IMG/VR virus record: IMGVR_UViG_3300051212_000340
Span: 1 to 21,919 of that record
Reading direction: 5' to 3' (one strand)
From: a virus
Length of the DNA: 21,919 nucleotides
Of this stretch, positions 2,748 to 5,445 are shown piece by piece; the first letter of the stretch is position 1, and each line of letters begins with the position of its first letter. The position numbers were made by a program, and so were the translations under genes. A model generated the notes under the pieces. It did not search any database and had not been told where the DNA came from. It saw nothing but the letters and a program-made list of their open reading frames with translations.

Positions 2748-3026
2748 TTATTTTATATAAGGACAGGCAATTTTGAAGAAGCTTACTTCCTTTTCTTGTT
2801 CAAAACCTACACGTAATACGTAACTAATAGAATTGTCTACAAGGTCAACACTTTGCCCTATATAATATCTACTGTTTAGATTAGCAAAGATCCATTTATC
2901 TATACTTTTGTATAGCAGTGGACTGTATTTGGGAATTGTTATATAATGAAAGTGATGCGCTGGGAATTCACACTTTCTAATCCCCAGCGCATTAAGCGGA
3001 TTCACCTTACCATTTTTTAAAGCCAT
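2748..3026 (-). CDS. Hypothetical protein, 92 aa
   Basis: Function not recognised. The protein has His/aromatic-rich sequence near residues 19-32 (FPAHHFHYITIPKYSP) and a beta-rich C-terminal half. The ATG overlaps the stop of the VWA/metallopeptidase gene by one base (TAATG), so it is probably translated by coupling from that gene and may serve the same process. A 37-base gap follows before the next gene. That gap is AT-rich and holds a ribosome binding site (AAGGA) but no convincing promoter. Confidence 0.65.
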   Translation of the reverse strand: MALKNGKVNPLNALGIRKCEFPAHHFHYITIPKYSPLLYKSIDKWIFANLNSRYYIGQSVDLVDNSISYVLRVGFEQEKEVSFFKIACPYIK

Positions 3027-4195
3027 TACCGTTTAAATTCGTAATAAGCATGAGTGCCAAATGGCGGAACAATACTGTCATTGCCATGAATAATAAACAC
3101 AGTATCACAGTAATCTGGATCGCCCCAACTATCCCAAGGATATCCATCTGTAAACATAATCAATTTTTTAGGATTGATTTCATGTTCTTTCATGTAAGTC
3201 CAGTTACACATAAAGTCAGTACCACCCCCGCCCATAAGCTCATAGCCCATGATGTCGTCGTTGTAACCGTCAAAGTCAGCTTCGTTGTACACCTTAGTAT
3301 CAAAACACCACAATTTAATTTTGTAGTCTTTATATTCTTCCATAATACCTTTAATTTCGCTGATAAAATCTTTACCCATTTCGTCAGTAATACTACCCGA
3401 CATATCAATAGAGCAGCAAATATCAATGGTTTCATCAAATTGTGTGCCAGGCAGTATAGCACTCATATGCCAGGCTTTGCGACTAGGACGCATAAATGTG
3501 TAATCGTTTTTAATTACACTTTGAATTTGTTGACGCAGAATTTCGCGCCAGTTCATTTTAGGTTCAGTAAGATCTTTGATCATACGTGCTACACTAGAAG
3601 GCACATTGCCAGCACCAGCTGCCTGTGCTGCCTGAATAGTAGCTTCTTTGATCTCGTCACGAATCTGTTTTAATTCTTCTTTGGTGTAAGAAGGACGTCC
3701 ATCCTTGCCTTCTTTTTCCCAATCGATGTGTTCGTCAAGCAACTGGCCTAGAGCCTTGAGTTGCTCTTCATCCATTTTTTCAAAGATTTCATCATAGATC
3801 TGTTCAGTGCTTTTTCCGTAATGATTAGTATCATGGAAGATTTTAATATCCGATGGCACTTCGCCAATTCTATCACGAATTAATTGTCCATTAACACTAT
3901 AGTCAGCAGCGGCATTCCAAATGAATCTATCACGGCCTTCCACACGCAACATGTGTTCGAAAACATTATGAAGAATTTCGTGAGCTACTACGAACTCTAC
4001 TTGTTTGTTACTAAGCTTTTCGAAAAAAGAACGATTGTAATAAAGATTACGTCCATCAGTGGCAGCAGTAGGGCACCATTCACTGCCGTCTTGTATCTTA
4101 AGACGAGTGGCCATGTTACCAAAAAATGGATGACGCAGTAGAAGACCCACTCGTGCTACAACAATTTTGTCTACAACAGGATCTAAGTAACTCAT
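3026..4195 (-). CDS. VWA-like/putative metallopeptidase partner of MoxR ATPase
   Basis: The 389-residue protein has two recognisable parts. Residues 1-120 carry a zinc-metallopeptidase motif H72-E73-I-L-H76, with a downstream NAAADYSVN segment typical of DUF2201-type proteins, where the third zinc ligand is expected. Residues 255-389 form a VWA-like domain with a MIDAS-type D264-x-S266-x-S268 (DMSGS) and a later FTDGYPWD segment. The middle (140-200) is charged and helical. The gene follows a MoxR-type AAA+ ATPase, the classic MoxR-VWA pairing used for remodelling or metal-insertion machines. In cyanophages similar pairs have been labelled CobS plus peptidase. It has its own promoter and a GAGGAG site before ATG. 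Whether the HExxH is catalytic is unknown. Confidence 0.85.
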   Translation of the reverse strand: MSYLDPVVDKIVVARVGLLLRHPFFGNMATRLKIQDGSEWCPTAATDGRNLYYNRSFFEKLSNKQVEFVVAHEILHNVFEHMLRVEGRDRFIWNAAADYSVNGQLIRDRIGEVPSDIKIFHDTNHYGKSTEQIYDEIFEKMDEEQLKALGQLLDEHIDWEKEGKDGRPSYTKEELKQIRDEIKEATIQAAQAAGAGNVPSSVARMIKDLTEPKMNWREILRQQIQSVIKNDYTFMRPSRKAWHMSAILPGTQFDETIDICCSIDMSGSITDEMGKDFISEIKGIMEEYKDYKIKLWCFDTKVYNEADFDGYNDDIMGYELMGGGGTDFMCNWTYMKEHEINPKKLIMFTDGYPWDSWGDPDYCDTVFIIHGNDSIVPPFGTHAYYEFKR

Positions 4196-4224
4196 TTTTG
4201 CTCCTCTATTTACTGTACTTATAT

Positions 4225-4253
4225 ATTATAACAGGGCCCGCAGGCCCTGTCAA
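4225..4253 (-). promoter_or_regulatory. Perfect sigma70-type promoter for the VWA gene
   Basis: Read on the minus strand, TTGACA (4253-4248) is followed by exactly 17 bases and then TATAAT (4230-4225), both full matches to the bacterial consensus. Transcription should begin about 4217-4219, giving a leader of some 20-25 bases before the ATG at 4195 with GAGGAG in between. It lies in the only gap between the MoxR gene and its partner, so the partner can be expressed separately. Confidence 0.88.
4231..4250. repeat. Palindrome filling the promoter spacer (operator candidate)
   Basis: An 8-base perfect inverted repeat (ACAGGGCC / GGCCCTGT) with a 4-base loop CGCA occupies the space between the -10 and -35 boxes and includes part of the -35. 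It is far more GC-rich than its surroundings. No T-run follows on the transcribed strand, which argues against an intrinsic terminator alone. A protein-binding operator or a read-through attenuating hairpin are the simplest readings. Confidence 0.7.
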
Positions 4254-4263
4254 TGGCTTTAGA

Positions 4264-5355
4264 TTAATTTCGATCTGTAGCCGCTGCGATATACTTACCA
4301 TACTTCGCATGGAATTGATCAAAGCACTCAATTTCGTCTGGATCCAGCGGCAGCTGATACTGTGTAAGTGCCAACTTAGTACCCATAACAACCAATTCAG
4401 TTTCAAAGTTATTCATAATGAAATTAAAGAAGTTGTTAACCTTTTTGTTCCAATCTTTTTCCTGCTTGTCGCAAGAGTCTTTGAGTTCATAGCACAAGCT
4501 AACAGTCAAAGAATACATAGCCGAAATCTCTTTAGACTCCATTTTAGTAACTTTGCCACTCAAAATATCTTCAGGCTTCGGCATCTTACTAGCAATCTTT
4601 CGATGTGCCATAAACTTAACAGCAAGACCTTCACCAACAGCACCGGAAACCAAATCAGTTAGTGTGCCTTCATCTTCTTCATCATCGAACAGCAGTTCAC
4701 TAACAAAGGCCCACGAACGAGGAGTAGCAAAAGCACGGCTACCACTCTTAGGATCAAAATCATACAAGTCTTTTTTGCTAAAAGAAAGAAAACCAAGTAC
4801 GTCTTTGTGAATACGATTGTCAGTGGCCCAAGTAAAGTAATCGTCCCAGTCTACACGCATCTCCAAGTGTACGAAACGGTTAGCCAGCGGAGCAGGCATA
4901 CGATAGGTTACACCTTTGTCGCTTTCACGGTTACCAGCAGCTACAATTAGCACATTGTCTGGCAAGTAGTAAGTACCAACACGGCGATTTAGTACCAACT
5001 GATAAGCCGCTGCCTGTACAGCAGGAGCAGCCGAATTCATCTCATCCATAAAAAGAATGATCTGCTTATACTTCTTTGCCATTACAGCATCAGGCAATTC
5101 AATAGGAGGAGCCCAAGACATTTTGCCGTTATCGCTATCAAAATATGGAATACCTTTAATGTCAGTAGGTTCCCACAAGCTCAATCGAATATCAATAACA
5201 TGGGCGTCAAGTTCTTCACCCATTTGTTTAATAATATCGGATTTACCGATACCGGGAGGACCCCAAAGGAAAATAGGACGCTTTGCTTTGAAAGCTCTGC
5301 GTAGAGATTTTTTAGCGGCTTTAGGACCAACTTGGCGCGAAGAAATTTCGCTCAT
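4264..5355 (-). CDS. MoxR-type AAA+ ATPase (CobS-like label in marine phages)
   Basis: The 363-residue protein has Walker A G32-PPGIGK-S39, Walker B ILFMDEMNSA with D104-E105, a sensor segment AAGNRESDKG and an arginine-bearing LANRFVHL. This order is typical of MoxR-family ATPases, close to the CobS/RavA branch. These proteins form hexamers that use ATP to remodel a target held by a VWA protein. The next gene is such a VWA protein with an HExxH motif, so the two probably work together. The C-terminal third is helical and has no recognised domain. Expression is from a perfect consensus promoter 60 bases upstream. The target, virion-assembly factor or host protein, is unknown. Confidence 0.9.
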   Translation of the reverse strand: MSEISSRQVGPKAAKKSLRRAFKAKRPIFLWGPPGIGKSDIIKQMGEELDAHVIDIRLSLWEPTDIKGIPYFDSDNGKMSWAPPIELPDAVMAKKYKQIILFMDEMNSAAPAVQAAAYQLVLNRRVGTYYLPDNVLIVAAGNRESDKGVTYRMPAPLANRFVHLEMRVDWDDYFTWATDNRIHKDVLGFLSFSKKDLYDFDPKSGSRAFATPRSWAFVSELLFDDEEDEGTLTDLVSGAVGEGLAVKFMAHRKIASKMPKPEDILSGKVTKMESKEISAMYSLTVSLCYELKDSCDKQEKDWNKKVNNFFNFIMNNFETELVVMGTKLALTQYQLPLDPDEIECFDQFHAKYGKYIAAATDRN

Positions 5356-5416: not shown

Positions 5417-5445
5417 ATTATATGACAGCTTACTAGGAATGTCAA
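5417..5445 (-). promoter_or_regulatory. Perfect sigma70-type promoter for the MoxR gene
   Basis: On the minus strand TTGACA (5445-5440), a 17-base spacer and TATAAT (5422-5417) match the consensus at all twelve positions. The predicted start near 5410 leaves a leader of roughly 55 bases, AT-rich with two T-runs, before the ATG at 5355. It lies in the largest intergenic gap of the window (5356-5460); nothing else is seen there. Confidence 0.88.

Follow-up and report, generated by a model that had tools for sequence, protein, structure and literature searches.

The window, as the whole 21.9-kb stretch of DNA analysed here will be called, is an IMG/VR virus record that carries nearly every gene on the minus strand. 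Its kin are 356–383 kb in size, and the window is a fragment of a jumbo phage; the nearest named phages are also jumbo phages, e.g. Phosso, Atu_ph07, PA5oct, CBB and GAP32. The element described below is carried by big phages of the T4-like kind, which make up a large family. This element lies between an ATPase gene and a gene for a protein with a VWA-like domain, and reads TTGACA-GGGCCTGCGGGCCCTGT-TATAAT on the minus strand from 4253 to 4225 (Table 1). The promoter boxes match the consensus at 12 of 12 positions, with a 17-nt spacer and the TG of an extended −10. An inverted repeat of 8 bases with a 4-base loop (ACAGGGCC/TGCG/GGCCCTGT) slightly exceeds the spacer, covering the ACA at the end of the −35 box and the TGT of the extended −10; these pair with each other and are letters common to promoter and hairpin. 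Both the boxes at 4225–4253 and the repeat had been described in an earlier note, and both were confirmed, coordinates included; the strand, absent from that note, is the minus one.

Table 1. Features at and around the ATPase–VWA junction of the window
Feature	Positions	Strand	Basis or remark
Consensus promoter of the ATPase gene, without hairpin	5417..5445	-	kept upstream of the ATPase gene in relatives
AAA (MoxR-like) ATPase gene	4264..5355	-	stop 10 nt ahead of the -35 box
-35 box TTGACA	4248..4253	-	final ACA forms the outer 5' arm; TTGACA in 47/49 distinct relatives' elements
5' stem arm ACAGGGCC	4243..4250	-	sequence, folding, covariation
UNCG-type loop TGCG with closing pair C-G on the coding strand	4239..4242	-	
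3' stem arm GGCCCTGT, final TGT = extended -10	4231..4238	-	sequence, folding, covariation
-10 box TATAAT; the proposed terminator would use it, as UUAUAAU, for a weak U-tract	4225..4230	-	
Predicted transcription start	4217..4218	-	from the -10 position alone
Shine-Dalgarno AGGAG of the VWA gene	4201..4205	-	AGGAGC also seen repeatedly in relatives
VWA gene, DUF2201_N metallopeptidase-like + VWA-like domain	3026..4195	-	Pfam

When folded as RNA, the element gave a stable GC-rich hairpin of 10 pairs (−19.5 kcal/mol), as is characteristic of intrinsic terminators. The window contains three perfect promoters, and only that of the ATPase–VWA junction has a hairpin in its spacer; a perfect 8-bp stem would be expected here by chance in ∼1e-3 of promoters (a rough estimate), or 4e-5 if GC-rich. 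The earlier note had suggested looking for the same palindrome elsewhere in the genome, and no second copy was found in the 21.9-kb window, which was also without a match to Rfam. Many relatives repeat a motif near ATATACATACAGTAAA on the 3′ side of the −10 box (4217–4195 in the window), which may be an additional early-promoter element. The PHROG match of the VWA protein is ‘HNH endonuclease’, a label copied in many records, and one that looks wrong since Pfam identified the domains given in Table 1.

Conservation and covariation of the hairpin

Relatives were fetched by means of their ATPase and VWA proteins, the element itself not being used as a query. A hairpin was present at the same promoter position in all 159 readable junctions (99 distinct sequences), 1–20 nt 3′ of the ATPase stop codon. 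This conservation is the decisive evidence that the palindrome exceeds chance. Combining the junction set with loci found by the pattern of the element provided 49 distinct 29-mers, 46 of which are hairpins, the other three coming from distant relatives (VWA proteins 52–56% identical). In the alignment of the 46 hairpins, which omits those three and so favours pairing, 99.5% of the cells pair and 75 cells have changed on both sides; with all 49 elements included, 375 of 392 cells pair. The covariation of the 46 hairpins was 0.517 (0.132 when shuffled), and sliding their alignment by one base reduced pairing to 45–48%.

On a quick tree of 121 VWA proteins, at least 18 switches between GG/CC and CC/GG stems were counted, versus 40 expected if shuffled. 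Two relatives with VWA proteins 95% identical, the same promoter and near-identical leaders (L056 and L059) have AGGACC/GGTCCT versus ACCTCC/GGAGGT as inner stem, and in another (L068) TTGACG is matched by CGT, a paired change within the promoter boxes themselves. At one junction (L041), ∼570 extra bases with an apparent GTG-start gene lie between the element and the VWA gene, and the promoter now serves this other gene ahead of VWA.

Of the 49 distinct elements, 24 have a UNCG-type loop on the coding strand and one has it on the opposite strand. In other contexts, the non-Watson–Crick pairs of stems with at least 7 pairs comprised 10 G.T and no A.C. The bias of the loop and the G.T wobbles argue for a coding-strand transcript rather than DNA, and point to a hairpin that would act in coding-strand RNA produced by readthrough from the upstream gene; transcripts of the promoter itself are predicted to start downstream of the hairpin.

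Searching viral sequences for TTGACA-N4-CTNCGG-N4-TGTTATA rendered at least 117 or so elements, and 115 of 117 among the matches listed are fully paired; with the same pattern, 3 of 44 matches in bacterial genomes pair, which is near chance. Generic promoters of viral contigs (TTGACA-N14-TGTTATAAT) showed a GC hairpin in none of 129 distinct spacers among the matches listed. Composites outside the ATPase–VWA gap are found mostly 0–23 nt past a stop codon, and precede genes for a clamp loader, a gp32-like SSB, ribonucleotide reductase, a lipoprotein-like protein and others. A 364-kb relative has a single composite and ordinary terminators at other sites, and other long contigs of the kin have one perfect composite apiece. 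Since the composite of the 364-kb relative stands alone amid ordinary terminators, something besides general punctuation may keep it at this gap. BLAST of the element against named phages returned, among the matches examined, classical CUUCGG terminators and weak matches, and no composite at this junction.

Related arrangements in other phages

In 10 cultured relatives (CBB, GAP32, BF, Kaldavass, Munch, RaK2, 121Q, XaC1, Atu_ph07 and Phosso) the ATPase–VWA gap contains a hairpin followed by a T-run; that of Munch is annotated as a terminator. Three distant relatives (L208, L266 and L301) have in this gap a classic terminator and then a separate TTGACA-17-TATAAT. The arrangement of these three and of Phosso shares the gap, gene order and proposed function with the element in the window, but comes in two pieces instead of a nested 29-mer. 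In the 121Q gap (L475), TTGACA is found immediately ahead of the classic terminator hairpin, possibly an intermediate between the separate and nested forms. The nested element itself precedes a different small gene (PHROG 1987, MGTRSRVAVMHG...) in L208, L266, L301, L207, L284 and L299; where one contig of these distant relatives carries both this element and the ATPase gene, the element lies ∼3.4–3.8 kb upstream of the latter.

An identical core, AGGACC-TTCG-GGTCCT, forms a canonical CUUCGG intrinsic terminator in the T4-like phages VR26, TH40 and VR20, where it is followed by six T's, whereas here TTATAAT, containing the −10 box, takes their place. The score of the UUAUAAU tail (3.5) was the lowest when compared with 11 terminators of relatives (4.3–5.6), and was no higher than random AT-rich sequence can give (95% limit 3.8). 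A terminator scan of the window did not flag the element, the tail of which has 4 T in 8 and falls short of a U-rich tract. The weakness of the U-tract would follow from the constraint on the same bases as a −10 box, and makes partial termination or pausing as likely as full termination.

PMC4503421 and PMC3950731 describe PeSLs (promoter early stem-loops), cassettes of T4-like phages. The element in the window resembles these in that a strong sigma70-type promoter and a stem-loop lie together between genes. PeSLs have an effective terminator stem-loop, are present in many copies in hyperplastic regions and take part in gene shuffling by recombination; the cassettes of T4-like phages were reportedly the subject of Arbiol 2010. 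Two observations may bear on such shuffling: the apparent gene lying between the element and VWA in L041, and the stem-type switches on the quick VWA tree. Unlike PeSLs, however, the element is single-copy at one orthologous junction. RB49, the type phage of PeSLs, contains in 99 kb at least 10 promoters with a spacer hairpin of the same nested geometry, a lower bound given that the same scan missed the element in the window, whose stem reaches the allowed edge. The RB49 copies largely share one stem (GGGGATC), whereas the stems at the junction studied here covary and enclose a UNCG loop. RB49 additionally holds terminator-then-promoter pairs. A third promoter–hairpin geometry was seen in this phage (L312; 39130, 38220, 36985 and 3201), in which the arms flank the −10 box and TATAAT lies in the loop. 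To judge from these comparisons, the element would be best filed as a PeSL-like, nested, single-copy variant, the parts of which are ordinary and the overlap unusual and strongly conserved; it was not classed as a PeSL proper because it lacks the many copies and because its termination is a prediction.

Interpretation of the nested element

The element probably (with a probability of roughly 0.74) combines two signals, a strong early promoter of the sigma70 type and, nested in its spacer, an RNA hairpin of the intrinsic-terminator type; it would end or attenuate ATPase transcription and start that of VWA. This is supported by the promoter match, the covarying structure, the RNA-type loop on the coding strand, the placement behind a stop codon and the signals in the same gap of relatives. 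Since these relatives have separate terminators, or a terminator and then a promoter, the element would be both signals merged. Termination at the hairpin, the efficiency of that termination and early use of the promoter are inferences. A polymerase leaving the ATPase gene would transcribe the hairpin just past the stop codon; the nascent RNA would then fold, and the polymerase would be released, or held, over a U-tract whose bases also serve as the −10 box. In duplex DNA the same bases would be an ordinary 17-nt spacer, allowing a new polymerase to start at ∼4217 and produce the VWA transcript.

An alternative that we consider unlikely, while giving it some weight, is that the hairpin is a 3′-end or processing structure that keeps 3′ exonucleases off the ATPase mRNA or makes the polymerase pause, readthrough into VWA being common. 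The weak U-tract is in keeping with such a role, as is a very stable UNCG hairpin of the exonuclease-blocking sort, and covariation would suit any RNA function; against it stands the finding that relatives have genuine terminators, T-runs included, in this gap. The perfect symmetry between the boxes could also suggest a cruciform or strand hairpin that forms in DNA under supercoiling and regulates the promoter by altering the −35/−10 spacing, and paired changes would preserve a DNA hairpin too. This is improbable: the loop is biased by strand to UNCG, an RNA motif, the wobbles on the coding strand are G.T and not A.C, arms of 8 bp are short for a cruciform and the element is mostly found right behind a stop codon.

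The earlier note had read the dyad as an operator for a repressor or activator of the MerR or TetR type, through which the VWA gene might be switched apart from its ATPase. MerR-like regulators commonly use dyads between the −35 and −10 boxes, and a protein binding site keeps its letters. At this junction the stem letters vary freely, with no conserved half-site, and pairing alone is kept; that the pairing persists while the letters change is a strong argument against an ordinary sequence-specific operator. Nor was there a second site in the window, and large relatives have one perfect composite each. The operator, now very improbable, was rejected on covariation. The part of the claim that stands is that VWA very probably has a strong promoter of its own, the ATPase gene having a separate one; conservation among relatives, the absence of which the note had named as evidence against its reading, was found at every readable junction, as structure and not as sequence. 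Mere coincidence, with a palindrome falling by chance into a strong promoter, has nothing in its favour beyond a single sequence; it has next to no probability and is already refuted by the conserved hairpin, its covariation and the difference in pairing between the viral and bacterial matches listed.

Within the reading of a terminator nested in a promoter, a polymerase released at the hairpin would find itself on the promoter and might restart there, the enzyme being recycled from gene to gene. We hold this hand-over to be rather doubtful. Bacterial polymerase has been seen in vitro to diffuse after termination and to reinitiate (PMC6978380); if hand-over is true, the terminator-in-promoter would be a natural use of such post-termination reinitiation.

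These phages would illustrate how evolution can pack a terminator and a promoter into one stretch of 29 bases, with part of the −35 box pairing with the extended −10. The relatives provide a natural series in which many stem variants are combined with a constant promoter. Such variants allow a direct test of the extent to which a −10 box is able to act as a U-tract, and of whether a terminating polymerase is handed over to an overlapping promoter; they may also be of use as compact, insulated promoter parts.
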